From a virus, in IMG/VR virus record IMGVR_UViG_3300009506_000903, positions 1-25,642 of that record: 25,642 bases of DNA. One strand, 5' to 3'. A program made the translations under genes and the position numbers. This document shows, in pieces, positions 6,461-21,266 of the stretch; the first letter of the stretch is position 1, and each line of letters opens with the position of its first letter. A model generated the notes under the pieces. The model was not told the DNA's origin. It ran no database searches and saw only the letters and a list, made by a program, of their open reading frames with translations.

Positions 6461-7640
6461 AGACTGGATAAGTGCCTATTTGAAATATACAGAGAATACT
6501 GAACCACCTATATCTTATCATACATGGACTGCTGTCTCAATGATAGCAGGAGCTTTGCAGCGAAAAGTCTACCTAAGGTGGGGCTTTGATACTATATACC
6601 CTAATATGTATGTAGTACTAATTGGGCCATCTGGTAGAGCGAGGAAAGGCACTGCAATGAATATCGGGAAGGATATTCTGAAAGATATAGGAATAAGTAT
6701 GACCTCTGAAAGTATTACTCGTGAGGCTCTTATTCGGGATATGAAGGAGGCTATCAGCAACTTTACTGATGCCACTACAGGAAAGATTAGGTATCATTGT
6801 TCATTCACTGCATTATCGGAGGAGTTATCAGTCTTCTTAGGCCAGAATGATATAAGGTTCTTAGCAGACTTAACTGATTGGTATGACTCAAGAGATAGTT
6901 GGACTTATCGTACAAAAGGTTCTGGAACAGACAAGATTGAGGGCGTATGTTTCAACATACTTGGAGCTACGGCTCCTGACTGGCTGCAATCAATTCTACC
7001 TCAGGAGGCTGTCGGAGGAGGCTTCACATCTAGAATTATTTTCGTCGTTGAGGAAACTAAAGGAAAGACAGTACCAGAACCGATATATTCAGACACTGAG
7101 CATGACCTCAGACAAAAGCTCCGCAGAGACTTGGAGAAGATTGCGACTCTTACGGGCGAGATTACCTTTGAGGCACAAGCTAAGGATGCCTACATTGCAT
7201 GGTACGAGGCGCATGAGGAGGCCATTGCCAAAGGTAAACCGCCTATTGAAGATACAAGATTTGCCGGGTACTTGGATAGACGAGCTACACATTTGAGGAA
7301 GTTAGCAATGGTAATGTCTGCAAGTAGGGGTACAGACAGACTTATAACATTACCAGATATTGAACGTGCAGATAAGGTACTCAAACAAGCTGAGGCTAAG
7401 ATGCACAAGACCTTTGGTGGGTTAGGGAGCAGTCCATACTCAGCAATTACTGATAAGGTTATTAACTATGTTAAGAACAAGCATGAAGTTAAGCGGTCAG
7501 AAGTATTGAGACAATTCTATAGAGACCTTGACCCATCAATACTAGATGTGATAGAGGCTACTATGAGTCAGATGAAGATTGTTAAAGTGATTAGAGATAT
7601 GCAGAACCACGATACTACCTATGAATATAAAGGGAGCTAA
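6438..7640 (+). CDS. DUF3987-like P-loop ATPase, putative replicative helicase
   Basis: A 400-residue protein resembling the DUF3987-type ATPases that phages carry beside DNA polymerase. The N-terminal PPISYHTWTAVSMIAGAL and the P-loop GPSGRARKGTA at 63-73 are visible; the P-loop ends KGT where a standard Walker A has GKT. The middle has ILGATAPDWLQSILP followed by GGGFTSRIIFVVEE, typical of these proteins. The last 70 residues look like a winged helix (KVINYVKNKHEVKRSEVLRQ), which may bind DNA. It probably serves as the fork helicase, but no primase domain is seen. The start lies 23 bases inside the polymerase gene, behind AGGAG at 6427. Confidence 0.7.
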   Translation: MSSSRELEDWISAYLKYTENTEPPISYHTWTAVSMIAGALQRKVYLRWGFDTIYPNMYVVLIGPSGRARKGTAMNIGKDILKDIGISMTSESITREALIRDMKEAISNFTDATTGKIRYHCSFTALSEELSVFLGQNDIRFLADLTDWYDSRDSWTYRTKGSGTDKIEGVCFNILGATAPDWLQSILPQEAVGGGFTSRIIFVVEETKGKTVPEPIYSDTEHDLRQKLRRDLEKIATLTGEITFEAQAKDAYIAWYEAHEEAIAKGKPPIEDTRFAGYLDRRATHLRKLAMVMSASRGTDRLITLPDIERADKVLKQAEAKMHKTFGGLGSSPYSAITDKVINYVKNKHEVKRSEVLRQFYRDLDPSILDVIEATMSQMKIVKVIRDMQNHDTTYEYKGS

Positions 7641-7641
7641 C

Positions 7642-7923
7642 ATGAATGGCAGAACAGCGAAAATACTACGAAGACTTGCTCAACGCAATACAAAGGGAAA
7701 GCCCTATGCGCGCTATCTTCAAAGGCAGACAACAGGGCAGATTATTCTTGACCCGCTGAGTTGTACTAAGGGATGGTATAGACAAATTAAGAAAGGACTC
7801 AAAATGAGAGACCCTTTCATGCTCAAGGCTATGGAAGTTGAGAAGGCTACTATAGAAATTGAGCGTTTAAGAAATGTCCGATTGTCGGACACATCTGAAT
7901 CGGAGGTGACTAGTGGACAGTAA
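7642..7923 (+). CDS. Small basic hypothetical protein, possible DNA-binding
   Basis: I do not recognise this protein of 93 residues. It is strongly basic in its first half (KILRRLAQRNTKGKPYARYL) and has a stretch, TKGWYRQIKKGLKMRDP, that faintly resembles the recognition helix of small helix-turn-helix proteins; this is weak. A longer form starting at 7621 exists, but AGGGAG at 7631-7636 lies 5 bases before the ATG at 7642, so that start is preferred. The 3' end of the gene contains a perfect 17-bp inverted repeat (7875-7891) found again upstream of a late gene. A regulator role would fit but is speculation. Confidence 0.55.
   Translation: MNGRTAKILRRLAQRNTKGKPYARYLQRQTTGQIILDPLSCTKGWYRQIKKGLKMRDPFMLKAMEVEKATIEIERLRNVRLSDTSESEVTSGQ
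7875..7891 (+). promoter_or_regulatory. Perfect inverted repeat upstream of the 7913 gene
   Basis: TGTCCGA, three bases (TTG), then TCGGACA: a perfect 7+3+7 dyad. It lies inside the 3' end of the preceding gene and 21 bases before the GTG start at 7913. The same dyad with a different centre (ACG) occurs at 20984-21000 and a degenerate form at 14063-14081, each before a ribosome binding site. It could be an operator for a dimeric regulator or an RNA hairpin in the leader. No T-tract follows, so it is not an intrinsic terminator. Confidence 0.6.
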
Positions 7924-8197
7924 GAAGGAAGAACAATTAAATAATACTAACTATCCTGATAGGAGTGAGATTGTTCCAATAGTAGCTGAGGCTATGTACT
8001 ATATTACGTGTACTAGTTTAATATACCAAGAAGGAAATGAGGCAGAGATAAGATTCATTAATGACCTTGCTAGAAGAAGGTACAATACAGATAACGCTTT
8101 CAAGAATAGAGTAGATGCTGCAGTTAATCAAATCTATAATAAGTTTGAGGAGCACAAACCTAAGATACAATTAATACCTGGAAGAGTGCTGCAATAA
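7913..8197 (+). CDS. Small hypothetical protein, last gene of the rightward block
   Basis: I do not recognise this 94-residue protein. It is mostly helical, with no signal peptide or membrane segment. It starts with GTG at 7913, supported by the GGAGG at 7902-7906, and overlaps the end of the previous gene by 11 bases. The inverted repeat at 7875-7891 lies 21 bases upstream of its start. Its stop codon (8195-8197) runs into the stem-loop that ends the rightward block, so it is the last rightward gene. Confidence 0.6.
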   Translation: MDSKKEEQLNNTNYPDRSEIVPIVAEAMYYITCTSLIYQEGNEAEIRFINDLARRRYNTDNAFKNRVDAAVNQIYNKFEEHKPKIQLIPGRVLQ

Positions 8198-8225
8198 GGG
8201 GACTTCATTGTCCCCTTTTCCTTTG
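8196..8225 (+). terminator. Terminator between the converging gene blocks
   Basis: An 8-bp stem, AAGGGGAC paired with GTCCCCTT, has a 6-base loop (8204-8209) and is followed by a T-rich stretch TTCCTTT. It starts in the stop codon of the last + strand gene and covers the stop codon of the - strand gene at 8205. On the + strand it looks like an intrinsic terminator; on the - strand the T-tract is weak (CCCCTTATTG), so it may stop leftward transcription less well. It prevents the two blocks from reading into each other. Confidence 0.75.
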
Positions 8226-11200
8226 CTCAACCATAGCTTCCTCTTCCTCACTTGAGATACCATAGTCTGTTCCATAGAACTTCTTAAGGAATGAAAGATG
8301 CTTATTGAAATCGTCTGACCTATATCCTAATCCCTGACTTTGCATCTGGCCAGCCATGCTTTCCATGATTCTTCTTCCTCTTTCATCGGCATCTCTCCAT
8401 TCCCAATAGAATAGATCAGCTCTAGTTATAGAGTCTTCATTCCCTGTATTGACCCACCATAACCGCGAAGGGACGGCCTCAGCGCCCGTATAACGGGACA
8501 TAATCCTGTCATAAGCCTTCTGTGCCTCAAATCGTTTTGTGAGCCGAGAGCGCTCCTCAGGCGGCTGTGCGTTAATCCATGCGCGGACTGTACGTTCACC
8601 CCCAGTTATTTCTCCCTGTTTCAGATTAAAATAGGTTTCATCCAACTTTCTAGCAAGGTCGTATCTATAACCTCTCCCTGCTTGAGTCATCGGTTCTATC
8701 TTCTCCATCTCTCTTGCAGCTGGATGAGTGATGCCTATGATTCTTCTGAGGATAGGGGTGTCTGCAAGGATTTGCATTGTCGTCCTACTTTTATCGTAAG
8801 GTGTCAGACCTTCAGTCATCATCTTATATCCCATCCCTGCTAAGTCAGTATAAGGATTGATTGGAAATAACTTCTTAGCCGCAGCCTCTGACCTTTCAGG
8901 AGACATTCCAGTCCATTGACCAAAGTCTCTAAAGAATGGAGGAGTAGGTTGCTTTGGAGGAAGGTTATACTCTTGCTCAGGAGGTAATCCTTCTTCACCT
9001 TTCCATATCTTACTATCATTCCAGAAATCATAGTTAGAAGCATAGGTCATACTTGCTGCTAATGTAGGAATTGATGCAGCCCCTACTGTAGGTAAGGACT
9101 CTCCCAACACTTTCAAAGTTCGTTCCCCAGGAGTTCTATCCATCATATACTTTGCTAGCAGATGTTCAGTAAGTGCTGTGAATGGAATCATAGTATTATC
9201 TTTCTTAATCTTAAAATACACATGACGAGTGTTTCCATTCTGATCTATGAAACTCATACCAGTTCCAATAATCCAATTCTTCTCCATCTCAGCATCAGAA
9301 ATATCGTTCATCAATTCAGGGTTAGCATAGTAGTTAGCTAGCCATAATGAACCAGCAGTTGCTTGAAGCCATGCAACCTTTGTAACAAATTCTCCTGGTC
9401 TTTGCTTTGCAGACCTTGCAGCCGTTCTGAAAGCTTGCATACTGGCATTGAGATATGGAAGAGCGTGGTCAGCCCCTTTAGTAGCCCAACCACCCTGAGC
9501 GAAGTCCAAATAGTTTCTTGCCTCCCAGGTTGCCTCAACAGGACTCTTTCCATTCTCAATAGCTCTATCCCTAATAGCTAAGCGTACCCATATCTCAGAG
9601 AACTCATTAAGCTTAGCCATTGCTTGTCCGACCTTTCTCAATCTAGGGCTCATCTTGATACCAGCCTTGGATACAGTTATCTGAGTCCCTTGATGAGTTA
9701 GGAAATTCATACCTCCATTTTCATTTATATAGTCTTTAAAAGTACCTTCCTTCTTCCAAGCATCCTTTGCAGTCTTTGCTAAGTTCTTACTCATCTGCGC
9801 CATGTATATAGGAAAGTGTGGACTAAAATCAGATGTAGTTATATAAGCGTGAATGAAGTCACGAGGGAAGTTAGCCAGAGCAAACCCTGGGTTATACCCA
9901 GTTGCTAATGGTCGCACAATAAAGCTACCTGACGCTACCCGCATAGTATTAGCCATCATTGCAGACACCTGTGGACTCTGCGTAATCCACTGCTTAGCCA
10001 TAGCAGCATCCATAATAAGAGGATGTTGCTTACCATCTATAAGAACATCTATTCTCACCTGACCTTCTTGCAGATGAATATTTCTTGCTTTCCCTCTCTT
10101 ATCATGCTTAATATCTTTAGCAGCTCTAACCCAGTTGTTCTCAGGATATAGCTCTGCATAGTTCCTAAGGGCCTTGTTGGCCTTATTCATAGCTATTCTG
10201 TTCTCAGCCCTAATCATATACTCAGCAAGGAGTAGACGGGAGTCAAGCTCAAGGGCCCTAATGTCACCCCTACTTAGTTCCTTCAAGCCTGAGTCATGAA
10301 CAGTAATCTTCTGTCCACCAAGTTTGCTTTGAGGAATAGGATCAATTCGATGTATGAACTTACGAGGCTCATACATAACTGTCTTCATCTCATTATAGGC
10401 TTTCTTATTGATAAGACCTTCAACATAGAGATCATCAAGAACTTGCTTAGTTGCCCTATCATAAAATTCTGACCGCTGCCATAGTTCCTGAAACTTATCA
10501 GGTCCTAATCTTTCCTCCATAGCAATAAGTGCATTTCTATGTTGAGTAGCAGTTGTTTTTCCTGGGTGTTGAGTCTTACCTTCTCCCTTAATCCTATCAA
10601 TTTCCATGATGCGTCTTGACTGCAGGATTTGATTCAAGGTACCTATCTCGGATTCAGATAAATTAGCATAAATCTTATCTGACCAAGCTTGATATCTGAG
10701 CTGAGCTTTAGGAGTTGCCCCTGCAATAAGGTCGTGCATCATTACAGCTTGCTTACCTACATCACCTCCTGTCTCTAGTAACCTTTCCTTAACCGCAGCA
10801 GATACGTCAAGAGTAGCATGCTTGACTTTATCTATGATAGACAAACGCATCTGTCTGTCAAGGGCTTTTAGTTGCTTCTCAGACCTATCATAAGTCTCTG
10901 TTACTTTCTTGTAGTCAGCATCAATAGCAGCTTGTGCTTCAGCAGACCTACCTTTAGTGCCTTCAGTAACTCTCAATGTAACAGGCTTATCTCCTAACTC
11001 TTTCATGAGCATAAGAGTATCAAGGTCACCTTTATCTAGCAACTCAATAGAGCCATCCTTATTTCTCGTTGCAGTTATAACTGGCGGCGCTTTAGCATCT
11101 TTTATCTTCTTACTTAACTCCACCATCTCCACAGGTGTACGAGTGATACCTACATCTTCAAGACCTGCTCTTGCAATAATATCTGTTGGGGTTGTCTTAA

Positions 11201-12206
11201 CTACTTCTGTTGTTGAAGACAGTTCAAGTGGTAGGTCCTGTTGCCTTTCCGCAACAACTTCCTTAAGCCTCGCCGCCTTTGAACTTTCAGTACTCTTGAA
11301 TGTCTTATATTCATTTACCTTACCTTTAGCAATTAATAAGGGAACATAATAAGGAAGACCGGCGATAGCAACATCAGCAGCAGTCGCAAGTAATGGACTA
11401 TCAGTATGGTCTAATACCCAAGTACCTACATGATGGCCCATATCTCCAGCACCTTGAAATATCTTACTAAACCAATCAGTATATACCTTGCCATACTCAG
11501 TCTGAGGAGAAATAGTCATAGCATTAGATACTTGACCAAATCCTCTTGCATATGCTTCTCCAGGGCTTTCACCTGTAGACTTATCTGACTCTATAGATTG
11601 TAGAGCCTCATGAGCGCCATATACTGCCCCTGCAAAAGCTCCAGCTAGTCCAGTGAACCCAGAAGCAAGGACCTCTCCGACGCCTACTGCTGCATCAGGC
11701 ACTCGAGCTAAATTGGCAAGGGATTGTTTTATAGTATCAGGAGAAATTTCCTGCCCTCCTACGATCATACCTTTGGAATTAGGAGACGTATTAGAGGGAG
11801 ACTCCTGGGCTGCTCCAAGTTCTTGCTCAATTTGTTGTTGAGGCAAGGGCTTTAGAGAAGTAGCAGGTGTCTGGTCTGCCTTTCCAGGAGTCTCTATACT
11901 TGCACTTCTGGCCTTTGCTGCAGCTACGGCCTCATCAATAGTATCATAGCCCTGCAAAGTCCTTCCAGTATCTGGATCTATTCCTTTTGAATCAGATATA
12001 ATCTTAATAGCTTCATCTGCTGAGACAGACTTACCACCGTAGATAGTAGGAATATTAGTGGGCTTTCCATTATTTATCCTAGTATCCTCAATAGTAATAG
12101 TTCGTTCGGTAGAGTAGGTTCCATCCGGATTAGCTATATAAGGACGACCTTCCTTAGTCTTACCTAAACTATTAAGCTCATCTTTATTAACAGGCTTGAG
12201 TGGCAT
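8205..12206 (-). CDS. Very large internal virion/DNA-ejection-type protein with LPD38-like region
   Basis: The largest gene, 1333 residues. Residues about 18-102 form a module seen in phage ejection proteins: NPDGTYSTERTITI, then NIPTIYGGK, and TIDEAVAAAKARS. A Pro/Gln-rich spacer follows (105-150). Hydrophobic Ala/Gly-rich stretches at about 172-200 and 272-294 could insert into membranes. Around residue 760-900 lies a region like the large polyvalent protein associated domain 38: NPGFALANFPRD and later YLDFAQGGW with PYLNASMQAF. No transglycosylase or protease motif was found. It is the last gene of the leftward structural block, after two other ejection-type proteins, as in podoviruses that release internal proteins with the DNA. 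The start follows AAGGATGAGACATG. Function is inferred from length, composition and position. Confidence 0.7.
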   Translation of the reverse strand: MPLKPVNKDELNSLGKTKEGRPYIANPDGTYSTERTITIEDTRINNGKPTNIPTIYGGKSVSADEAIKIISDSKGIDPDTGRTLQGYDTIDEAVAAAKARSASIETPGKADQTPATSLKPLPQQQIEQELGAAQESPSNTSPNSKGMIVGGQEISPDTIKQSLANLARVPDAAVGVGEVLASGFTGLAGAFAGAVYGAHEALQSIESDKSTGESPGEAYARGFGQVSNAMTISPQTEYGKVYTDWFSKIFQGAGDMGHHVGTWVLDHTDSPLLATAADVAIAGLPYYVPLLIAKGKVNEYKTFKSTESSKAARLKEVVAERQQDLPLELSSTTEVVKTTPTDIIARAGLEDVGITRTPVEMVELSKKIKDAKAPPVITATRNKDGSIELLDKGDLDTLMLMKELGDKPVTLRVTEGTKGRSAEAQAAIDADYKKVTETYDRSEKQLKALDRQMRLSIIDKVKHATLDVSAAVKERLLETGGDVGKQAVMMHDLIAGATPKAQLRYQAWSDKIYANLSESEIGTLNQILQSRRIMEIDRIKGEGKTQHPGKTTATQHRNALIAMEERLGPDKFQELWQRSEFYDRATKQVLDDLYVEGLINKKAYNEMKTVMYEPRKFIHRIDPIPQSKLGGQKITVHDSGLKELSRGDIRALELDSRLLLAEYMIRAENRIAMNKANKALRNYAELYPENNWVRAAKDIKHDKRGKARNIHLQEGQVRIDVLIDGKQHPLIMDAAMAKQWITQSPQVSAMMANTMRVASGSFIVRPLATGYNPGFALANFPRDFIHAYITTSDFSPHFPIYMAQMSKNLAKTAKDAWKKEGTFKDYINENGGMNFLTHQGTQITVSKAGIKMSPRLRKVGQAMAKLNEFSEIWVRLAIRDRAIENGKSPVEATWEARNYLDFAQGGWATKGADHALPYLNASMQAFRTAARSAKQRPGEFVTKVAWLQATAGSLWLANYYANPELMNDISDAEMEKNWIIGTGMSFIDQNGNTRHVYFKIKKDNTMIPFTALTEHLLAKYMMDRTPGERTLKVLGESLPTVGAASIPTLAASMTYASNYDFWNDSKIWKGEEGLPPEQEYNLPPKQPTPPFFRDFGQWTGMSPERSEAAAKKLFPINPYTDLAGMGYKMMTEGLTPYDKSRTTMQILADTPILRRIIGITHPAAREMEKIEPMTQAGRGYRYDLARKLDETYFNLKQGEITGGERTVRAWINAQPPEERSRLTKRFEAQKAYDRIMSRYTGAEAVPSRLWWVNTGNEDSITRADLFYWEWRDADERGRRIMESMAGQMQSQGLGYRSDDFNKHLSFLKKFYGTDYGISSEEEEAMVEQRKRGQ

Positions 12207-12215
12207 GTCTCATCC

Positions 12216-13292
12216 TTATTCAGTAGGCCAGTTATCCTGTAACCATTTAGATAATTGGTCAGGAGGTACATCAGGATAGTTCTCAATCAGATACCCTAAT
12301 AGTTCCTTCGGAGTCCACTCCCTATCTGCAGGGAAGCTTATATCAACTCCATTAACCTTTCCATCTCCAAGAGTCTCTGTCTTTGGAGTCTGCTCACTTG
12401 TTTGTCCCTGTTGACCTTGCTCAGTCTGTTGAGGAGTTTCAGTACCCTGTTGTGGTGCCGGAGCTTGTTCTCTACTGCTAAAGAAGTTCTTGATTCCATT
12501 GAGTAGATCTCCCACACTAGTTTCACCTGTTGGTTTAGGCTGTGTAGTAGTTTGATTCTCTAGATTAAAAGAACTAAATACATCTCTAGATATCTGAGAC
12601 GCTCTAGCTCCAGCAACTTCTGCGGACATACCATCCTCAAACATTAAACCCTCAAGCTGACTCTTGGCAAGCTCAGCCATCTTATTCTTAATAGGGTCAT
12701 CAAAGGTCCAATCATTACCAACCTTCTTCCCGAAGGTAGCATTGATAACTTCAACAGCTTTGCTACGATTCTTTAGAAACTCACGAGCATTGGCTCTATT
12801 AGTAGCATTATCAGGTTTCTGTTTCTTCTTAAGAATATCCTTAATAGCATCCTGCATGTCAGTAGCTTTCTGTCCTGTTTCCTCTGTTGGCCCCATCAAG
12901 GTTAGGTTACGAGCATTAGCATTCTTCTCCGCTGCGCCAGATGCTATGTCTTCAGGTGTAGCAGCAAATGTTGTCTTTCGCTTAGGATTAGTCTTATCAT
13001 AAGCCGTGACTTTAGTCAGACTACTCTTCTGACTTCTGGCAGAAATAACTAATCGAACAATATCACCAGAATCTACCTCAGGAGCCATCTCAGTAGCTTT
13101 AGTAAAATCCTCTCCAAGGGAACGGTCATAAGAGCCAAGTACTTTAGCAAGCTGCTCAGCCCTTTGCTTCTTCTGCTTATCAGAGATAGACTTCTCTGCC
13201 CCTTTAATAAGACCTGTACCAATACCTTGACCGAAGGCAGCCCCAGGTGGATTGCCACCATAGTCAGGTGGTAAATATAAAACTGTTGCCAT
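12216..13292 (-). CDS. Putative internal virion protein, Gln/Pro-rich
   Basis: A 358-residue protein I recognise only by type. The N-terminus is Gly/Pro-rich (LYLPPDYGGNPPGAAFGQG), followed by charged helices with many lysines. Residues about 245-315 are low-complexity and rich in Gln, Thr and Pro, which looks like a disordered linker. The last 40 residues (DREWTPKELLGYLIENYPD) look folded and acidic. It sits between the nozzle/ejection genes and the 1333-residue protein, so it is likely part of the DNA-ejection apparatus. The start follows AGGAG with good spacing. It could instead be an unrelated virion protein. Confidence 0.55.
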   Translation of the reverse strand: MATVLYLPPDYGGNPPGAAFGQGIGTGLIKGAEKSISDKQKKQRAEQLAKVLGSYDRSLGEDFTKATEMAPEVDSGDIVRLVISARSQKSSLTKVTAYDKTNPKRKTTFAATPEDIASGAAEKNANARNLTLMGPTEETGQKATDMQDAIKDILKKKQKPDNATNRANAREFLKNRSKAVEVINATFGKKVGNDWTFDDPIKNKMAELAKSQLEGLMFEDGMSAEVAGARASQISRDVFSSFNLENQTTTQPKPTGETSVGDLLNGIKNFFSSREQAPAPQQGTETPQQTEQGQQGQTSEQTPKTETLGDGKVNGVDISFPADREWTPKELLGYLIENYPDVPPDQLSKWLQDNWPTE

Positions 13293-13306
13293 GTTAAACT
13301 CCTAAC

Positions 13307-14050
13307 TTAAAAGATCAGTGAGCCTGCTTTCATACCAACACCAGCGCCAACACCACCAAGGATACCTGACAAGGCACCCTCTGACCCAGGCTTAGCAATA
13401 CCAATGTTTTCAAGAGTCTGCTGACCAGTAGCCCCTAACAACAATTGCAATAGCTGATTCCGTTCCTCCATCATCTGCTTACGTCTCAACTCTGATACTG
13501 TATTATTAGTAGCAAAATCTGTAGCTGCTCCAGTAACAGTTGGTATCAAACCAAGAGCCTGTAGCATTCTATTTCTTGCCGCTTGGTCAGCCTCAAATGA
13601 CATACGAGTACGCTCTGCAGATAGATTCCTTGTAAGGTCATTAGTCGCAGTAAGGTCTTGATTCAACCTGTCAGAACCCCAGAAGTTAGACCCAGCCCGT
13701 GCAGATATCTGTGGAAGTATCTGCTCACTGAACGTCTTGAGTAAAGGGTCTTGTACCGTCTGTGTAAAGTACTGGTCAATCTGCTGAGGGTCGTATTGTA
13801 AGGACTGATTCAGAGTATTAGCAGCTGTACCCATAGAGCCAGTTATAGCCTCTAGGACCTTCTGCATAGCAGCATCCTGATTAGGATTAGCTGTCCCACC
13901 GGCAGTACCTATAGTCCCATAGTCACCTATATCTCCCTGAAGCAGCTTAAGCATATAATTGATAGCTTGATTCTGCTCAGGAGTTTTAGTAGGTAGAGTT
14001 TTAAACTCTGCACTACTTTCAGTACCTGTTAAAAAGCTGCCTAAGTCCAT
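13307..14050 (-). CDS. Putative DNA-ejection/internal virion protein
   Basis: A 247-residue, mostly helical protein rich in Gln, Ala, Asn and Thr. The middle has a long helical part (PQQIDQYFTQTVQDPLLK) and conserved-looking SARAGSNFWGSDRL. The C-terminus is Gly/Ala-rich and hydrophobic (GILGGVGAGVGMKAGSLIF), which could associate with a membrane. Composition and place after the nozzle-like gene suit a podovirus ejection protein of the P22 gp7/gp16/gp20 or T7 gp14 kind; I cannot say which family. The start follows AGGAGAACGAGATG. A degenerate inverted repeat lies directly upstream (14063-14081). Confidence 0.6.
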   Translation of the reverse strand: MDLGSFLTGTESSAEFKTLPTKTPEQNQAINYMLKLLQGDIGDYGTIGTAGGTANPNQDAAMQKVLEAITGSMGTAANTLNQSLQYDPQQIDQYFTQTVQDPLLKTFSEQILPQISARAGSNFWGSDRLNQDLTATNDLTRNLSAERTRMSFEADQAARNRMLQALGLIPTVTGAATDFATNNTVSELRRKQMMEERNQLLQLLLGATGQQTLENIGIAKPGSEGALSGILGGVGAGVGMKAGSLIF

Positions 14051-14062
14051 CTCGTTCTCCTA

Positions 14063-14081
14063 TTGCTCGATAGTCGGACAA
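14063..14081 (-). promoter_or_regulatory. Degenerate copy of the TGTCCGA dyad upstream of the 14050 gene
   Basis: On the coding strand this reads TTGTCCGA, CTA, TCGAGCAA. Six of eight arm positions pair in DNA; as RNA one of the two mismatches becomes a G-U wobble. It lies 12 bases before the ATG at 14050, with AGGAG between, and fills most of the gap between two genes. The left arm is identical to that of the perfect copy at 20984-21000. Confidence 0.4.
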
Positions 14082-14084
14082 TTC

Positions 14085-15836
14085 TTAATATTCACTTTCC
14101 ATCCTATATATAAACCCAAGACTTTCCCAGATAAGACCGGATGAACCTGATAATCTTAGCCTGAATCTTCTTGAAGCTTTCTGTAAAGAAGTACTTACTA
14201 GTCCAAGGGTTGTCTTAGTAATAGTAGTAAGTGTTTGCCAATTATCACCTTCATCAAAGCTTATCTCAACTAAGATAGAACTTCCTTGAATTCTAAAATC
14301 GAAGGTATCCGTTCTAATCATAAAGCGAGGGTGTCCAAAATCTTCCGTCTCAAATACATAGTCTATAGTATTTCCATTATCATTAGTAGTAAAATAATCA
14401 TACTCATAGACCTGTCCATCATCAGATAATAAATGGGTAATAGGAGAATTTGCTGAGACGGATTTAGAATCCCAACTCCAATCCTGTTGAGTCCAATCAC
14501 CTACTAACTCATTCCAAGTTTTATCATCCTGACTTTGATAGAATCCGAATCCAGTTAAATTAAGACCAAAGTCTCTTGTATAGAAAGCATTATTTGCAAG
14601 TGCTAAGCGCATTAATTTAGTAGGATATTCATCTGTTGTAGTAGGATAGAATATCCAAACTTCATCAAGTTCCTCAACATAGAAACCAAATACTCTTTGC
14701 TTATAACTTGCATTAAGTTCGCCATTAACCCCAAAGGTTAAATCATATATCTTATCGCCTATAGGATTAAAGTCAAAGCCCCCTCTATATTCATATATAT
14801 TTGAGTTACCTACAAATAGATGGTAATCACCAAGATCAATAACACTATCTTGTGATAGGGCTCCTTCCCCGGCAATAACAGTCTCAAAGTCAAATAGTAA
14901 ATCAACAGTTCCTACATATTCAGTTCTTACTACTGACCGTTCCCTATAAAATATCATATAAGGACCTAAAGCAGATACTGCTATAAGCCAATCCTCATTA
15001 TCAAATAAATCAGTAAAGCCTGCATTACCTGTTGTCCAATTAGTTGGGTCACCTGTATCTGACCTTCTTACTCGCTGAGGATACTTACTACCACCTTCCG
15101 TTGTATGAGCAAGAATAAGATGGTTTTCAAATACAGTAACTAATCGACACTGAGTATTACCTGAACTAGGTAAGTTAGGAAGTGTCTGACAACTGGCTCC
15201 ATCATAGTACTGAGGATTATCAACTCCATTAGTAAATACGAACCAATCATGACTAGGTAACGTACAGACCGATACTTGAATATCAGCAGATCCTGTTAGG
15301 TCAACAGCCTTAACAACAGCCGCACCTACTCCAGTGTTCTTACCTGTAGGTATGGCATCATCTATAGTTATACTAACACCGGCAGATACACTTGCTATAG
15401 TAGTCCTATGCTGTGTACCATCAGATAAATCAATACCGACATAATCACTAGCAGTAAAACCAGCAGTCGAAGGAACCTCAATAACGGTCTGGCCAGCAAC
15501 TTCGTCATTAGATGTGGTAGTGGCAGTACCATCAGATACATATCTCCATTCAGCGCTCTCTAATTTATAGAGGGTAGCATCTGTTATCAGCATTAACTCA
15601 GATGAACCATCTTTCATATAGAACTGGTATGATACTCTTGGATTCCCCCTTACAGTACTAAGAAAAGGAGCATATCCAGTATCAGACCTTACTGTACGCT
15701 TATAGAACTTAACATTGTGGGCAGTCAAAGCCTCACCAGGGTCAAGAGTTATAGAAGGTATATCAGCCCTTATACCTTTTGTAAGGTCTTGAATGTGCTT
15801 ATATTCCCACTTATTTTCTAATTCTAAGAAGCTCAT
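14085..15836 (-). CDS. Tail nozzle/hub-like protein (P22 gp10-type, putative)
   Basis: A 583-residue, beta-rich protein. Its N-terminus has the pattern DIPSITLDPGEALTAHNVKF followed by a ringing set of short strands with YQF, LYKL and WRYVSDG, as in podovirus stabilisation/nozzle proteins. There are many repeated WIF, DLGDYH and NSNIYEYRGG turns that suggest a beta-propeller-like fold. Such proteins form the six-fold nozzle below the adaptor ring and bind the fibres. It is next to the collar-fibre gene, which fits. The start follows AAGGAATTATAATG. The call rests on N-terminal pattern, length and context. Confidence 0.6.
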   Translation of the reverse strand: MSFLELENKWEYKHIQDLTKGIRADIPSITLDPGEALTAHNVKFYKRTVRSDTGYAPFLSTVRGNPRVSYQFYMKDGSSELMLITDATLYKLESAEWRYVSDGTATTTSNDEVAGQTVIEVPSTAGFTASDYVGIDLSDGTQHRTTIASVSAGVSITIDDAIPTGKNTGVGAAVVKAVDLTGSADIQVSVCTLPSHDWFVFTNGVDNPQYYDGASCQTLPNLPSSGNTQCRLVTVFENHLILAHTTEGGSKYPQRVRRSDTGDPTNWTTGNAGFTDLFDNEDWLIAVSALGPYMIFYRERSVVRTEYVGTVDLLFDFETVIAGEGALSQDSVIDLGDYHLFVGNSNIYEYRGGFDFNPIGDKIYDLTFGVNGELNASYKQRVFGFYVEELDEVWIFYPTTTDEYPTKLMRLALANNAFYTRDFGLNLTGFGFYQSQDDKTWNELVGDWTQQDWSWDSKSVSANSPITHLLSDDGQVYEYDYFTTNDNGNTIDYVFETEDFGHPRFMIRTDTFDFRIQGSSILVEISFDEGDNWQTLTTITKTTLGLVSTSLQKASRRFRLRLSGSSGLIWESLGFIYRMESEY

Positions 15837-15845
15837 TATAATTCC

Positions 15846-16673
15846 TTAGAATTTAATACAATAAAGTACATTGATGTTGATGGGTCTTGATTCACTACCA
15901 CCATTACCAGATATAGTATGGGTATGCGCTCCAGAAGAACCAGTATTACCTTGACTACCGCCAGGAGTACCAGTTAAGTACTGATCTCCTGAGGTTAGAA
16001 AACCTTGTGAGTGCGTATGTGCCCCATCTGAACTGGTAACGCCTCCGTGGTTATGGTCTTTAACCTCATCAGCCTGTACAGAACCAATAACATCTCCACC
16101 TGTACCATCACCCCTATCAGTACGGGTAGCAGCATCTGGGTCATTGCCAGCTCCATTATCCCAACCACGAAGGAAATACCCACGTAAGTCAGGAAGATTG
16201 AATGTGGTAACTCCATCACCGTTACCAAACCACTCTCCTATAACAGCAAATAGTCCAGCATAAGTCGTTCTCGATACTGCCGACCCATTACAGACAAGCC
16301 AACCAGAAGGAGCCGTTGTTCGCATGAAGCCTTGAACAGCACCGGCAGGAGTTCCTTGTATAGTACCATTACTTGTTATCTGCGTAACTGTACCAGCCGA
16401 GTCCTCATAGTATAATTCAGTTATACCACCAACATCTTTTGTATATGCAAAGCCTACATTAGCAGCATTAGTTGGGTCTGATGCCTGCTCAAGTAAGGTA
16501 CACCACTTATGAGCACCATCATTAGCATCTCCAGCCCAACTATGGTCGACTTCAAGACGCTCACTTATATCATTCTTCAATTCCCTGATACGAGTAGCAC
16601 CTTGACTAGCACTTTGACTGTCTGCCGGGGAGGCTTCATAAGCAGCATTCCAAGTTCTTGTAAAGGTAGTCAT
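15846..16673 (-). CDS. Tail fibre protein with phage tail-collar domain and HxH tip
   Basis: A 275-residue fibre protein. After an N-terminal part with ATRIRELKNDISERLEVDH, residues about 115-180 form a tail-collar domain: GFMRTTAPSGWLVCNG, TTFNLPDLRGYFLRGWDNG. The C-terminal region is Gly/Ser/Thr-rich and has three HxH motifs, DHNH, AHTHS and AHTHT, before a closing SRPININVLYCIKF. In T4 gp37 HxH motifs bind iron along a trimeric needle; a similar metal-bound receptor tip is likely here. It lies between the nozzle-like gene and another small fibre-like gene. The start follows GAGGATTAAAGATG. The cell-surface receptor cannot be told. Confidence 0.85.
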   Translation of the reverse strand: MTTFTRTWNAAYEASPADSQSASQGATRIRELKNDISERLEVDHSWAGDANDGAHKWCTLLEQASDPTNAANVGFAYTKDVGGITELYYEDSAGTVTQITSNGTIQGTPAGAVQGFMRTTAPSGWLVCNGSAVSRTTYAGLFAVIGEWFGNGDGVTTFNLPDLRGYFLRGWDNGAGNDPDAATRTDRGDGTGGDVIGSVQADEVKDHNHGGVTSSDGAHTHSQGFLTSGDQYLTGTPGGSQGNTGSSGAHTHTISGNGGSESRPININVLYCIKF

Positions 16674-16684
16674 CTTTAATCCTC

Positions 16685-16996
16685 TTAGCTTACTATAGCC
16701 CTATCAGTAACTCTACGCCAATTAGTTCCATCTGAGAATGCTGGAACAGCTCCACCAGATTCATCAGATACATATATCATATTTCCTTCATAATCAGAAG
16801 CTGTAGGCAATGTAGCAACTGTATACTCAGGTAGAGCTGGGCCATAGTCAAATATACTATTAACAACAGATGCTATATCTCTCAGTCCAGTTCTTATATC
16901 CCTAGCAAGATTAAATACAGATTGATAAGTTTTCTCATTATCATAGTCTGACTTCCTAACCTGTAAAGCGGGCTTTGTTAAACTAAGTTTAGTCAT
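16685..16996 (-). CDS. Small tail/fibre-associated protein
   Basis: A 103-residue protein. The first 50 residues look helical (SVFNLARDIRTGLRDIASVV). The end, IYVSDESGGAVPAFSDGTNWRR, is a motif common at the ends of phage fibre and baseplate-associated proteins. It may be an attachment or chaperone-like partner of the collar-domain fibre encoded next. The start overlaps the amidase stop as ATGA. I cannot assign a specific family. Confidence 0.6.
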   Translation of the reverse strand: MTKLSLTKPALQVRKSDYDNEKTYQSVFNLARDIRTGLRDIASVVNSIFDYGPALPEYTVATLPTASDYEGNMIYVSDESGGAVPAFSDGTNWRRVTDRAIVS

Positions 16997-17447
16997 GATA
17001 CCTATAAGCCCTATCTCTTAAATCCCAAGGTAAGTCAGATGCTACATCGAAGCAAGGACAATCCTTATGAACTCCTGGCATATCTCTGTGTCCTGCATAT
17101 TTAGCATTAATAGCCATCCTACCTAATAGTCTCCAAAGCATTTTCATACTTTCTTTCTGTGCCCAGGTTCTGGTATCTTTAGGATTGCCTTGCCAATCAA
17201 GACCACCTATATAACATATACCCCAACTATTCGTATTATAGCCTTTAACGTGGGCACCCCTCTCATCCAAGTCTCGCCCTATCTCAATTCTACCGTTAAG
17301 ACGAATAACAAATTGATAGCCAATTTCTGCAAAGCCTCTATCCTTATGCCACTGATTAATATTCTCAGCGGTAAAGTCCTCACCCTCTTTTGTAGCAGAA
17401 CAGTGAGTTATTATTAATTCTATAAGGTCTTCGTTGATAACACTCAT
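16989..17447 (-). CDS. T7 lysozyme-like N-acetylmuramoyl-L-alanine amidase (endolysin)
   Basis: An amidase-2 enzyme that cuts the bond between muramic acid and the peptide stem of peptidoglycan. The chosen start gives 152 residues, close to T7 lysozyme (151). Zinc ligands match T7: H15 in ITHCSAT, H120 in AGHRD and C130 in DCPCFD; the catalytic Y44 (GYQF) and K128 are also present, as is GAHVKGYNTNSWGICYIGG. The frame is open to 17504, but that extension overlaps the upstream gene, and GGAAGGAG at 17457-17464 points to the ATG at 17447. No signal peptide is seen, so it needs a holin, for which the gene just upstream is a candidate. T7 lysozyme also binds T7 RNA polymerase, but no such polymerase gene lies in this window. 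Confidence 0.92.
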   Translation of the reverse strand: MSVINEDLIELIITHCSATKEGEDFTAENINQWHKDRGFAEIGYQFVIRLNGRIEIGRDLDERGAHVKGYNTNSWGICYIGGLDWQGNPKDTRTWAQKESMKMLWRLLGRMAINAKYAGHRDMPGVHKDCPCFDVASDLPWDLRDRAYRYHD

Positions 17448-17456
17448 TGATGGAAC

Positions 17457-17464
17457 TCCTTCCT
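17457..17464 (-). promoter_or_regulatory. Ribosome binding site fixing the amidase start
   Basis: GGAAGGAG on the - strand, 9 bases before the ATG at 17447 and touching the stop codon of the upstream small membrane protein gene. It favours the 152-residue amidase over the longer open frame. Confidence 0.65.
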
Positions 17465-17667
17465 TATTTTGCAGGGAAGTCAATATCAATAATATGCAAG
17501 GCAACTCCAGCAGCTACTATTGAAGCGGCTACTATCCATAGAATTCTTCGTCGAATACTAGCGCCTACTGATATATCAATAGTTTTGAATAGTTGATTTA
17601 CTATAGCTCTTGCAATCTTATTTATATCCTCATCAGACAATCTACTATCATTAGAGTCATTGTTCAT
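17464..17667 (-). CDS. Small single-span membrane protein, candidate holin
   Basis: A 67-residue protein. A polar N-terminal half (residues 1-40, with DEDINKIARAIVNQL) is followed by RRR and one transmembrane segment at about 42-60 (ILWIVAASIVAAGVALHII), then a short acidic tail. The gene ends just before the endolysin start, the usual place of a holin. Single-span holins of this size exist, but so do small inner-membrane spanins; the N-terminus is long for a pinholin. No second transmembrane segment and no lipobox are seen. The start follows AAGGACCTAGGATG. Confidence 0.65.
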   Translation of the reverse strand: MNNDSNDSRLSDEDINKIARAIVNQLFKTIDISVGASIRRRILWIVAASIVAAGVALHIIDIDFPAK

Positions 17668-17680
17668 CCTAGGTCCTTCA

Positions 17681-18382
17681 TTAATCTATGTCATGCACAA
17701 AAGGATCTTTCCAATATTGAGAAGGTATACCAGCTTCATCCATAGTGTCCCCAACCAGTTCTATAGATGGTTGTTCAATATCCTCTCCAACAATATCGTT
17801 AAGCATATTTTTATAAATAGCCCAGAACTTATTAGCATCCTCCATATTCCTAAGAGATAAATAACCCCAACTAACTGCTAGCATAATAAGAGCATCATCT
17901 TTTTCATCAAGGTCTGATGCTACATCGCTCGAGGCATTGAAAGCGGTAGGCCATGCAGTTATTCTTATATCAAGGTCATATGCTGCGTCTGGTATCTTCC
18001 ATAGTTCTAACTTTCCTGCCCACTTTGTATATATAGAAGGTTTACCAGTTGCATACTTCTCAGGGTATGGAATACGCTTATCAAATTCTTTATAAAGGAA
18101 ACCCTGTAACTTTCTACTCTCACTACCATCAATTAGACGAATATCATGTATCTTTCTAACAGTACTTGGAAGTGTTACAAACTTATCATCAGCAGGAGTT
18201 CCAGTATAAGAAGTAGATAAAGAAGTATTCAAGCCCTCAAGCTCTTCAAAGTTATGTACTCTTGCAATCCTTTGCTGAGCAATATTCAACCAGGTAATAT
18301 ATCTAGCTGTAGATATATCATCCCTATCAGCGAAGAAGGCCGATACTTCTGTAACCAATTCTGAACGAGTTAAGGTTCCCAT
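17681..18382 (-). CDS. Head-tail adaptor (connector) protein
   Basis: A 233-residue protein with features of podovirus adaptors of the SU10/P22 gp4 kind. The N-terminus has TRSELVTEVSAFFADRDD and the LNIAQQRIARVHNFEEL helix, then beta sections with KFVTLPSTVRKIHDIRLI and a helical C-terminal part with WGYLSLRNMEDANKFW. Such proteins form a ring under the portal. It is the first gene after the capsid terminator, and lysis genes follow. The start follows AGGATATAAAGATG. The exact family is my recognition by pattern, not a search. Confidence 0.7.
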   Translation of the reverse strand: MGTLTRSELVTEVSAFFADRDDISTARYITWLNIAQQRIARVHNFEELEGLNTSLSTSYTGTPADDKFVTLPSTVRKIHDIRLIDGSESRKLQGFLYKEFDKRIPYPEKYATGKPSIYTKWAGKLELWKIPDAAYDLDIRITAWPTAFNASSDVASDLDEKDDALIMLAVSWGYLSLRNMEDANKFWAIYKNMLNDIVGEDIEQPSIELVGDTMDEAGIPSQYWKDPFVHDID

Positions 18383-18397
18383 CTTTATATCCTAATT

Positions 18398-18425
18398 AAA
18401 AAGAGGGGAGGACCGAAGCCCTCCC
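18398..18425 (-). terminator. Strong intrinsic terminator after the capsid genes
   Basis: On the - strand an 8-bp stem, GGGAGGGC paired with GTCCTCCC (one G-U pair), closes on a UUCG tetraloop and is followed by CTCTTTTT. It lies between the stop of the decoration-like gene (18433) and the start of the adaptor gene (18382). It should lower transcription of everything downstream relative to the capsid genes. Confidence 0.88.
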
Positions 18426-18432
18426 TCCTTTA

Positions 18433-18903
18433 TTACCAAGGGAAATCACACAAGATGATCTGTGCAGACGAATCCACAGACTGGGCACAGACATGATCTG
18501 TTTCCGCAGCTACGGACAAGTCCAACGTACCATCACCAGCGCCTGTGGGAGTTAGAGAATCCCCGTCAGCTCCAGCTGTTAGTGCGATGCTAAGTGTTGC
18601 TACACCCTTAATCTGAATCCAGCCATACTCCTGGTCAGACATATTGGCTTGCAGTACACCAGCCCCAAGTTCGCCAGTACAATCGCTCAGGTCAGATGAG
18701 ACCTGGAAGTCGACAGGGCCATCATTACCATAGTAGTATGCAACCTCACCGGCTACACCATCCACGGCAGCAGTACCTTCGATATACTGAATGTACTTAT
18801 AGACCTTGTTTCCTTCAAAACGGAGACAGCCCACACCTTCTTTATCAGTGGTGCTAACTGCGTCCAGCGGTGTTGCGAATACCTTCTTAATACCGTAAGT
18901 CAT
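18433..18903 (-). CDS. Putative capsid decoration/stabilisation protein
   Basis: A 156-residue, beta-rich, acidic protein, rich in Gly, Ala, Val, Asp and Thr, with repeated hydrophobic strands (VAGEVAYYYG, GVATLSIALTAGADG) and GDGTLDLSVAAETDH near the end. It is directly downstream of the major capsid gene and shares its higher GC and C/G-ending codons, a mark of highly expressed virion proteins. Capsid cement proteins and small head fibres are often found here. A strong AAGGGGGTG precedes its ATG. The role is inferred from context and composition. Confidence 0.6.
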   Translation of the reverse strand: MTYGIKKVFATPLDAVSTTDKEGVGCLRFEGNKVYKYIQYIEGTAAVDGVAGEVAYYYGNDGPVDFQVSSDLSDCTGELGAGVLQANMSDQEYGWIQIKGVATLSIALTAGADGDSLTPTGAGDGTLDLSVAAETDHVCAQSVDSSAQIILCDFPW

Positions 18904-18914
18904 TTCACACCCCC

Positions 18915-19886
18915 TTATGCTGTGTCAATGTTGTAGATGACACCCTGACAGCGGCGGCGCGAAACAGTGAAGTTACCGGCCAGTACAATCTGAGCGGCAC
19001 GGTCATTCACTTGGTCAGGTATCGGCTTCCACTCCGTCATGTCAAAGTACATCATAGGGTCGTACTTGAACGTGATGAAGTTTGTATTTAGGAAGTACAT
19101 CCGAGTGTTGGCACAAGAGGGAGACCAAATCATCGGAATACCTTTGAAGGACTGATTCTGGAATCCCATATCAGCCAACTTTCGGTCATTAATCCGATAG
19201 TAATCAAGAGCCTCATCCTCATACCATTCATACGGAGTCTGTCCCGTTAAGATGATATCTGGCGCATCCATCTTCAGGTTGTTGGTGCAGTTGTTCAGCA
19301 AAGTACGCATCTCAGCTACACCATTAGTGGCAAAGCTGGAACCAGTTAAGTTCTTAGTCTGATTCCTCCACCAACTGTAGGTGGACTGGTTGATAGCGCC
19401 GACTTCAGTAGAGGACGTCGGGTCATCTTGCACCAGATGCTGCAGACCATCAAAACCATCATCACTTGCTGTATTAGCAAACAGACGTGTTTCCAAGTCA
19501 TCAATGATGGAGTTTCTGGTATTTTCCAGCTTACTATTCATGAAGTCGATAATCTTTGACTTCGAGCGGTTCTGCTGGTCGTCCACACCAAAGCGAACGA
19601 TTGAAGCAGCCATATACTTCCAATCCCACTGCGATACAGTCAAGAATTCATAGTCGTTCAGCGGTACAGTACCACCTTTCTTTAACCAAACGACGTTATC
19701 ATTCTTGTCATACTGCAAGGGATCAGTCAGGAAACGTCCACCGGAAACAGACTTCAGTTTGCCCTTTTCCTTCAACCAGTACCAGAAGGGGGTGGCATCA
19801 AAAATCTGGTCACGGATGGTGTCCTGCATATGCTGCCAAGTAGTTGTATAGAGGTTGTCGAGTGCCTCTGTCAACGTTAAGGCCAT
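18915..19886 (-). CDS. Major capsid protein
   Basis: A 323-residue protein whose N-terminal half follows the pattern of many podovirus coat proteins: TTTWQHMQDTIRDQIFDATP, FWYWLKEKGK, GGRFLTDPLQYDKNDNVVWL, SQWDWKYMAASIVRFGVDDQ and MNSKLENTRNSIIDDLETRL. The HK97 fold is likely but cannot be shown by eye. It sits in the usual place after the scaffold-like gene. Codons end mostly in C or G (TTC, TAC, GAC, AAG), unlike neighbouring genes, consistent with very high expression. The start follows AGGAGTATTGCAAAATG. Confidence 0.85.
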   Translation of the reverse strand: MALTLTEALDNLYTTTWQHMQDTIRDQIFDATPFWYWLKEKGKLKSVSGGRFLTDPLQYDKNDNVVWLKKGGTVPLNDYEFLTVSQWDWKYMAASIVRFGVDDQQNRSKSKIIDFMNSKLENTRNSIIDDLETRLFANTASDDGFDGLQHLVQDDPTSSTEVGAINQSTYSWWRNQTKNLTGSSFATNGVAEMRTLLNNCTNNLKMDAPDIILTGQTPYEWYEDEALDYYRINDRKLADMGFQNQSFKGIPMIWSPSCANTRMYFLNTNFITFKYDPMMYFDMTEWKPIPDQVNDRAAQIVLAGNFTVSRRRCQGVIYNIDTA

Positions 19887-19920
19887 TTTGCAATACTCCT
19901 ATTCCGAGTTAAGTTAACAA

Positions 19921-20652
19921 TCAATCATCACTAAGTTGCACGTCAACCATAGTCTTTGCCCATGCTGTGTCGGCTGCGGTCTTAGTATCCATGTCGGAAG
20001 GTACTTCCTCACTCCCTCCACTGGTTGGTAAGAGGCCACCAAAGCCTGGCTTCGATTTTGAAGACTTATTGTCTTCAGATCCCTTATCGTCTTCGGACTC
20101 ATCTTTGCTATACTTTTCTTCGAGTTCTTTAACCTTATCCGGGTTCTCTGCCTTTGCCAGAGCATAGATTCTGGTGAGGGATAGTTCAGGATTATCCTTA
20201 GCAATCTTAGCCATTTCTGGCTTAAAATCATTAAAGTCTTTATGCTTTGCCTGAAGTTCCTTAACCTCAATCAGTAATCTTTGTTCCTCACTTGAGCTGC
20301 TCACAGTCTGAAGTTGGTCAGTTAACCCTTTCATACTCTTAGTAATTATCTTTTCAACCTGACCTAACATATGCCCCATGAACTGTTTTCTATCCATAGA
20401 CTCGAGGTCTGCCGAAGCAGAAAGGTCTTCCTCCTCTTCCTCATTATCTTTGCTAGATTGTCGTTCAAGAGCCTGTCGCTGTGTCTCGGTCAGTCCAGAT
20501 AATGTACCTGTGAGTTGACTAAGTTGATCACCTTGCTTCTGACTCGATTCAACTAGTGTCCCTACCACCTTCGCTAAATCTCCTACTATCTTACTTAAGT
20601 CCTGCTCTTCGCCAGACTTTTCATCTTTCTTCTTACCTGCTTCGCCTACCAT
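19921..20652 (-). CDS. Capsid scaffold-like protein
   Basis: A 243-residue, highly charged protein, rich in Glu, Asp, Lys, Ser and Gln, with heptad-like helical stretches (DLSKIVGDLAKVVGTLVESS and LIEVKELQAKHKDFNDF) and acidic linkers. The C-terminal part is low-complexity (SEDDKGSEDNKSSKSK). This composition and its place directly before the major capsid gene suit a scaffolding protein that guides procapsid assembly. No protease motif was seen, so it does not look like a maturation protease fusion. The start lies just after the stop of the upstream gene. Confidence 0.75.
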   Translation of the reverse strand: MVGEAGKKKDEKSGEEQDLSKIVGDLAKVVGTLVESSQKQGDQLSQLTGTLSGLTETQRQALERQSSKDNEEEEEDLSASADLESMDRKQFMGHMLGQVEKIITKSMKGLTDQLQTVSSSSEEQRLLIEVKELQAKHKDFNDFKPEMAKIAKDNPELSLTRIYALAKAENPDKVKELEEKYSKDESEDDKGSEDNKSSKSKPGFGGLLPTSGGSEEVPSDMDTKTAADTAWAKTMVDVQLSDD

Positions 20653-20653
20653 T

Positions 20654-20971
20654 TTACTCTACCTCGCTTTTAGATTTACCTATGCCAAGATTAGCTAATA
20701 AAGTAGCCAACTTGCCACTATCCTTCGATTCTTCTTTCTGACCTTCAGTGTCAGATACTTCCACTCGTGGAGTCACAAGTTCTTCTGATTTAGATTCAGC
20801 TTGCTGCCTCGCAGCTACTACCAACACACGTCTCTTTCTTCGAATCTCCAACATGATAAGACGTTCAATCTTCTTAAGAACTCGTCCAGAAGTGTACTCG
20901 ATATTCTTACCAGAAACTTTTACATTTCCTTGTGTATCAATATCTATATCAATGTGTACAGGTTTTGTCAT
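20654..20971 (-). CDS. Hypothetical protein upstream of the scaffold gene
   Basis: I do not recognise this protein. From the ATG at 20971 it has 105 residues: a beta-like N-terminus (VHIDIDIDTQGNVKVSG), a basic helix (RVLKKIERLIMLEIRRKRR) and a charged, probably disordered second half. A longer frame begins at 21001, but that start lies within the inverted repeat, while AAAGGGGG sits 4 bases before the ATG at 20971. Its place between portal and scaffold genes suggests a role in head assembly. Confidence 0.6.
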   Translation of the reverse strand: MTKPVHIDIDIDTQGNVKVSGKNIEYTSGRVLKKIERLIMLEIRRKRRVLVVAARQQAESKSEELVTPRVEVSDTEGQKEESKDSGKLATLLANLGIGKSKSEVE

Positions 20972-20975
20972 AATA

Positions 20976-20983
20976 CCCCCTTT
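20976..20983 (-). promoter_or_regulatory. Ribosome binding site fixing the 20971 start
   Basis: AAAGGGGG on the - strand, 4 bases before the ATG at 20971 and directly next to the inverted repeat at 20984-21000. Folding of that repeat in RNA would end right at this site. Confidence 0.6.
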
Positions 20984-21000
20984 TGTCCGAACGTCGGACA
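20984..21000 (-). promoter_or_regulatory. Perfect inverted repeat upstream of the 20971 gene
   Basis: TGTCCGA, CGT, TCGGACA on the coding strand: a perfect 7+3+7 dyad, identical in both arms to the copy at 7875-7891. It fills the gap between the stop of the zinc-ribbon gene (21005) and the ribosome binding site of the next gene. It may be an operator or a leader hairpin. Confidence 0.65.
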
Positions 21001-21004
21001 TTTC

Positions 21005-21265: not shown

Positions 21266-21266
21266 A

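Follow-up and report, generated by a model that had tools for sequence, protein, structure and literature searches.

The 25,642-base window analysed here is the entire IMG/VR phage record IMGVR_UViG_3300009506_000903, which is probably a fragment of a phage genome. It contains short palindromic sites and, in open reading frame (ORF) 269-1621, a gene for a fusion of a ParB-type CTPase domain, a helix-turn-helix (HTH) and an N6-N4 DNA methyltransferase. Among this phage and its relatives, palindromes of one genome have the same arms, and these change from genome to genome together with one DNA-binding helix, that of the fusion; for these reasons the palindrome is regarded as a protein-bound DNA element. 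The sequence comparisons make it very probable that the fusion is the protein that binds it, and binding together with genome-wide loading at these sites is, taken jointly, likely.

Palindromic sites in the window

The following sites were recorded.
7875-7891, plus strand: perfect 17-bp palindromic site, TGTCCGA-TTG-TCGGACA
14064-14080, minus strand: degenerate third site with two mismatches, TGTCCGA-CTA-TCGAGCA, in the gap before ORF 13307-14050
20984-21000, minus strand: perfect 17-bp palindromic site, reading TGTCCGA-CGT-TCGGACA along the coding strand, in the gap that separates ORF 21005-21265 from ORF 20654-20971

The exact dyad TGTCCGANNNTCGGACA occurred at 7875-7891 and 20984-21000 only, with no occurrence in each of 100 dinucleotide shuffles. 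The centres of the two copies differed (TTG at 7875; ACG on the plus strand, or CGT on the coding strand, at 20984). Read along the coding strand, the 7875 site ended 21 nt before GTG 7913 and the 20984 site 12 nt before ATG 20971; at both perfect copies a ribosome-binding site separates the dyad from the start codon. The two dyads, their differing centres and their placement before start codons had been described in the original prediction, made from the letters of this stretch; its two copies are real, and it had overlooked the one at 14064-14080, which lies on the minus strand 13 nt before ATG 14050, just before a ribosome-binding site. When up to three mismatches were allowed, two additional matches were found in the window, 14064-14080 among them. 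Neighbouring sites among the three are separated by about 6.2 and 6.9 kb. The 7875 copy does not occupy a clean gap but falls within the 3' end of a predicted ORF (7621/7642-7923). Scans of 7600-21300 for sigma-70 promoters and for terminators gave no more than the shuffle level; the 20984 site scored as terminator-like on the plus strand, which runs counter to the late genes.

Palindromes of the same build with private arms in related phages

A Megablast search of phage records with the window gave no match, and searches of viral contigs with the portal and scaffold proteins gave no relatives. Relatives identified through the capsid protein carried palindromes of the same build ahead of the same genes, with different arms (TGTTCAC in L005; TGTTCAT in L003, L004 and L007; TGTTCGA in L012). 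At the junction that holds the 20984 site in the window, a palindrome with other arms was present in L003, L004, L005, L006 and L007. Relatives identified through the DNA polymerase, many of them records of 36-48 kb, likewise had private arms: TGTCCCA, TGTTCCA, TGTTCAA, TGTAAAA/TGTACAA, TGTAACA and others. No copy of the exact window dyad was present in the first 15 related loci. The conserved feature is thus the architecture of the site and not its letters. The original prediction had proposed conservation in related phages as a check; the exact sequence was absent, and the palindromic architecture was kept with genome-specific arms. Applied to the exact sequence, such a check would refute the element falsely, since site and protein diverge together.

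Sites were counted in 24 genomes, with at most two mismatches over the 14 arm positions; G001-G007, G011 and G028, which are fragments or near-duplicates, stood outside the core-count, layout and spacing statistics of this first set. Within one genome the arms were nearly constant, with 2-16 copies per genome. A genome's own core was present in 7.25 copies on average, compared with 1.46 for the cores of other genomes (at least two differences; maximum 7). The centre was AAT or ATT in 62 of the 82 sites between co-directional genes, which makes the site a symmetric 17-bp palindrome about one base.

Several observations concern how the palindromes are distributed among these records. The early block with the ParB-methyltransferase gene is joined to at least two different structural modules among relatives G008-G032 (families 8-18 versus 19-32), and the private palindromes extend through both types of module. 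G019 has an identical palindrome with its flanks at 46 and 42864, at both record ends, as for a terminal or circular repeat. G052 (locus L148) has asymmetric sites, TGTTCAA on one side and TTAAACA on the other, which cluster near the ParB-methyltransferase gene with a spacing of about 1.6 kb.

Genomic layout and spacing

The 24 genomes had 131 sites, mostly in small gaps between genes: 103 were intergenic, compared with 13.2 expected from the non-coding content. Among the 99 intergenic sites that could be classed, 82 had co-directional, 12 convergent and 5 divergent neighbouring genes; the corresponding figures for all 1191 gene junctions were 1097, 54 and 40. For the 82 co-directional sites the median distance was 28 nt from site to start codon (10-90% range 6-210) and 7 nt from stop codon to site. 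The short distance to the start that had been noticed for the two perfect copies of the window is therefore true of these copies and is not general across relatives.

The sites were more evenly spaced than expected by chance. In 18 genomes of the first set, one terminal duplicate site of G019 having been removed, the summed squared coefficient of variation (CV2) was 3.72 compared with 13.5 +/- 2.06, that is, more even than random placement at gene junctions (p=0.0002, the lowest value that 5,000 trials allow). From a second set, 12 genomes gave 4.43 compared with 9.81 +/- 1.48, more even than uniform placement (p=0.0002).

Co-variation of the site with the recognition helix of the fusion

The fusion and its parts are placed as follows.
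269-1621, plus strand: ParB-CTPase / HTH / N6-N4 methyltransferase fusion, 450 aa (Pfam, TIGR00180, and model and PDB matches)
275-544, plus strand: ParB_N (CTPase) domain, residues 3-92 (Pfam and invariant motifs)
662-697, plus strand: HTH recognition helix GESSGNVADNLK, residues 132-143, of which 135 and 136 vary together with positions 3 and 4 of the palindrome arm
845-1594, plus strand: beta-class DNA methyltransferase domain, residues 193-442, with DPPY at 233-236 (motifs and structure matches)

Eight protein families are common to at least 16 of 23 genomes. A 12-column window was slid along their alignments (2,139 windows), and window distances were compared with site distances after removal of the whole-protein distance (partial correlation); the test covered 23 of the 24 genomes, G009 being omitted as it gave no usable ParB reading. 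The best of the 2,139 windows was the recognition helix of the ParB-methyltransferase, with a partial r of 0.55; the windows ranked second to sixth overlapped this helix. The best window in any other shared protein reached 0.40. When site labels were permuted, a maximum of at least 0.55 was obtained with p=0.0025. With 41 genomes pooled, the recognition helix was again the top window (r 0.34, p=0.001).

In these 41 genomes, the residue at position 135 went with the base at arm position 3, His with G (6/6), Gln with A (2/2) and other residues with T (32/33). Similarly, residue 136 went with arm position 4: Met with A in 7/7 cases, Ser with C in 5/6, Gly, Ala or Pro with T in 25/27, and Thr with A in 1/1. 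These pairings form a helix-to-site code that is near-deterministic across the 41 genomes and, judged by co-variation, the HTH of the fusion would be what reads the palindromic DNA. In an ungapped alignment with Bacillus Spo0J, the G-K-S-R segment is matched by residues 132-135, and residue 135 aligns with R173 of Caulobacter ParB. In the accessible part of a study of the latter, parS is contacted by S172 and R173, and with R173Q the base that is read changes from G to A (PMC7383237). On this alignment the Gln-A pairing is the same chemistry as that of R173Q, the register on the 17-bp site not being fixable from sequence.

Prediction and replication

In Desulfofustis phage LS06-2018-MD01 (OP947158), the helix reads SKSS, and C at arm position 4 was predicted before the genome was scanned for sites. 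The scan gave 8 copies of the type TGTCCCA-NNN-TGGGACA, with C at position 4 as predicted; they are 2.0-7.8 kb apart and evenly spaced (p=0.0028). A profile search gave 80 further loci, 71 of which were typed for helices, and those of at least 8 kb were scanned. For 15 loci the base was predicted from the helix by a rule fixed before the site scan; 12 of them were at least 8 kb long, and the predicted base was matched in 5 of these 12 (L116, L150, L154, L175 and, in a longer record, L141). The expectation of TTCAA sites in G016 and G017 was not counted as a prediction.

An unsupervised scan for a significant cluster of intergenic palindromes was passed by 12 of the 24 genomes of the first set, by 17 of 36 genomes of the second set, which were longer records, and by OP947158, and by none of 11 control sequences, T7 and lambda included; two of the 11 controls (MW202489 and Vibrio phage ABTNL-3) carry a remote ParB-methyltransferase. 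The window, which has two or three copies, fails this strict scan.

The ParB-CTPase / HTH / methyltransferase fusion

The fusion scored 61.4 bits with ParB_N (PF02195; cut-off 26.3), 62.1 bits with N6_N4_Mtase (PF01555; cut-off 26.7) and 85.6 bits with TIGR00180 (cut-off 58.45). In 26 of 26 aligned homologues, residues G54, R57, E89, N90 and R93 of the GxRR and ENxxR motifs, which were assigned to Boxes II and III by motif likeness, were invariant. In the methyltransferase, D233, P235, F401, G403 and G405 (DPPY and F.GSG motifs) were invariant. The predicted model of the fusion had a predicted local distance difference test score (pLDDT) of 86 and a predicted template-modelling score (pTM) of 0.62. 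Its N-terminus matched ParB/Noc structures (Foldseek prob 1.00), and residues 193-442 matched the beta-class adenine methyltransferases CcrM, M1.HpyAVI and M.BceJIV (Z about 24, root-mean-square deviation 2.2-3.0 over 196-215 residues); with VIA-align, 213-215 residues were aligned for M.BceJIV and CcrM. The fusion was present in all 25 of the relatives' records that reach the early genes, 7 others being short fragments of the capsid region.

ParA (AAA_31) was found in none of 20 records, which may be incomplete, while all 14 control genomes were positive; the absence of ParA indicates that the fusion and its sites are not a ParABS partition system. Tyrosine integrase (PF00589) and HTH_3 (PF01381) were each found in 0 of 20 genomes with positive controls, other types of repressor and integrase not having been searched.

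Other features of the window

The rightward early block encodes the ParB-methyltransferase fusion, a uracil-DNA-glycosylase/exonuclease, a helicase, DNA polymerase A and a primase, and the structural block runs leftward. At 8196-8217, where the early and late blocks converge, lies an inverted repeat, AAGGGGAC...GTCCCCTT, with a T-rich flank, which is probably a terminator common to both. The family A DNA polymerase is split into 2174-3184 (uracil-DNA-glycosylase-like and 3'-5' exonuclease) and 4856-6460 (polymerase), the two being separated by a 99-aa ORF, a Dda-like helicase and a 78-aa ORF; in Desulfofustis phage OP947158 the DNA polymerase is annotated as one gene of 2481 nt. In the structural block, between terminase and portal, 22988-24229 encodes an ATP-grasp protein of the phosphoribosylglycinamide synthetase type (GARS_A/GARS_C).

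Alternative explanations for the palindromes

The original prediction offered a phage operator or an RNA hairpin as explanations. The first holds as far as it means a protein-bound DNA element, which agrees with the helix co-variation, and a classical repressor operator is unlikely. An operator of the CI/Cro type was put aside: the sites are placed genome-wide irrespective of transcription, and neither HTH_3 nor tyrosine integrase was found in 20 genomes. A broader form of regulation is conceivable, in which the ParB-methyltransferase would bind the palindromes as a global transcription regulator or roadblock, similar to KorB or to stoperators, and the methyltransferase would act elsewhere. 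The location of sites close behind stop codons and often ahead of starts agrees with this, and dispersed repressor sites are known in mycobacteriophages as stoperators, as described in the accessible part of PMC9283540. A regulator would need neither sites between convergent genes nor even spacing over both blocks, and the lack of tyrosine integrase and HTH_3 repressor in 20 genomes also speaks against it; we consider it rather unlikely. It is decidedly unlikely that the sites act in partition or packaging, as centromeres or condensation sites organised by the ParB module, with the methyltransferase as an incidental part. The scores of ParB_N and TIGR00180, both above their cut-offs, are in keeping with it, as are the several sites per genome, since parS is often present in this way. 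It is opposed by the absence of ParA from all 20 records with all 14 controls positive, by the absence of tyrosine integrase, which leaves no sign of a maintained prophage, and by the even spacing, for which partition has no need.

Two further readings rest on the stem-loop that such a sequence could form. Every palindrome could fold as RNA, and the copies in the window lie 12-21 nt before starts, as for a hairpin that controls translation or mRNA processing. This part of the original prediction is not borne out, and we hold it to be very improbable: 12 of the 99 classed sites lie between convergent genes, arm mismatches in the 82 co-directional sites show no G-U bias (8 G-U, 17 A-C and 19 other), most centres are AWT and thus leave only one unpaired base, Rfam 15 gave no match over the gathering score in the window, and the partner in co-variation is a DNA-binding helix. 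The sites might also be promoters of a phage RNA polymerase. N4-type hairpin promoters have a 7-bp stem and a 3-nt loop, and the stem-loop geometry and the location before genes are compatible with such a function. Here again the sites between convergent genes and the symmetric centres disagree, and T7-type RNA polymerase (PF00940) was found in 0 of 20 records with the T7 positive control matched, the N4-type virion enzyme not having been searched; this reading is scarcely credible.

A ParB-methyltransferase clamp as the favoured reading

We favour the view that the palindromes would be the phage's own parS-like sites, each of which a dimer of the fusion would recognise through its HTH. By analogy with ParB, the fusion dimer would close on the palindrome as a clamp switched by a nucleoside triphosphate and would then slide off. 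With loading sites every few kb, such clamps would be able to cover the entire phage genome, and the methyltransferase joined to each clamp would act in cis to modify the DNA of the phage itself. Loading at the palindromes followed by sliding is, on this analogy, somewhat favoured, and methylation of phage DNA in cis as the purpose may equally well prove right or wrong. Candidate purposes would be anti-restriction, packaging and late DNA handling, among which self-marking against restriction is favoured. According to the accessible part of the pink-berry study that describes MD01, the hosts have restriction systems for which these phages contain sites, and the specificity of the phage methyltransferases could not be predicted (PMC10370329). 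In its most complete form the proposal, which we put forward as tentative, is that the clamp loads only at private palindromes, slides between them and carries the methyltransferase with it. The landing site and sliding in cis, and not only a short methyltransferase motif, would then decide what is modified, and site and helix, changing together, would form a private address code of the lineage.

Several results weigh against this view. The window's own helix (Ser135-Gly136) breaks the rule for arm position 4, having C where Gly136 usually pairs with T. In the second set, 19 of 36 genomes have the fusion without a qualifying palindrome cluster, and neither MW202489 nor Vibrio phage ABTNL-3, whose fusions are more remote, has such a cluster; the palindrome array is therefore not universal. 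Among the 12 loci with a predicted base, one (L114) had a different, non-significant repeat and six had nothing. Spacing was uneven in some genomes (G015, G027 and G066). The fusion may also bind without sliding; according to the accessible part of a survey, ATP was bound by some methyltransferase fusions with a ParB fold, and many of the candidates failed to bind anything (PMC12704722). G036, G038, G041, G045, G046, G054, G057, G061 and G065 have the fusion and no palindrome cluster of the 7-3-7 type; these genomes may use another site length or none.

According to the accessible text of the same survey, ParB-CTPase/N6N4-methyltransferase fusions were catalogued in December 2025, are frequent in phages and have no known function (PMC12704722). 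A search of the open-access literature, with subscription papers and preprints outside its range, gave no description of dispersed ParB-type phage sites tied to a methyltransferase. The sites give this class of fusion a concrete and testable candidate substrate and connect a ParB clamp to DNA modification, and about 40 natural pairs of site and helix are made available for reading how ParB-type HTH domains choose DNA. Modification in cis, if true, would amount to a novel means by which a virus distinguishes its own DNA from that of the host.

Comparison with known systems

The fusion resembles the ParB-parS systems (Spo0J/ParB and Noc-NBS) in its ParB_N CTPase fold, its invariant GxRR and ENxxR motifs, its HTH and its palindromic target. 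It differs in that chromosomal parS is one near-universal 16-bp site, whereas the phage sites are 17 bp long and odd-centred, with hypervariable genome-specific arms; they are also spread evenly over the whole phage genome, no ParA was found, and a DNA methyltransferase forms the C-terminal part. The likeness to Caulobacter ParB extends to the site-reading residues, which align with residues 172-174 of that protein, R173 being a specificity residue in the accessible part of PMC7383237. The phage ParB-CTPase/N6N4-methyltransferase fusions surveyed in PMC12704722 have the same domain pair; no target sites are given in the accessible part of that survey, and the DNA sites, the code and the genome-wide layout are added here. 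As in the stoperators of cluster A mycobacteriophages, many dispersed, phage-specific sites would serve a phage protein. Stoperators are asymmetric and bound by a monomeric immunity repressor, as stated in the accessible part of PMC9283540, whereas here palindromes go with a ParB-methyltransferase, and no tyrosine integrase or HTH_3 repressor was found in 20 genomes. Finally, the methyltransferase domain matches the beta-class DNA adenine methyltransferases CcrM, M1.HpyAVI and M.BceJIV in fold and in its DPPY motif and, unlike these, is fused behind a ParB clamp module.

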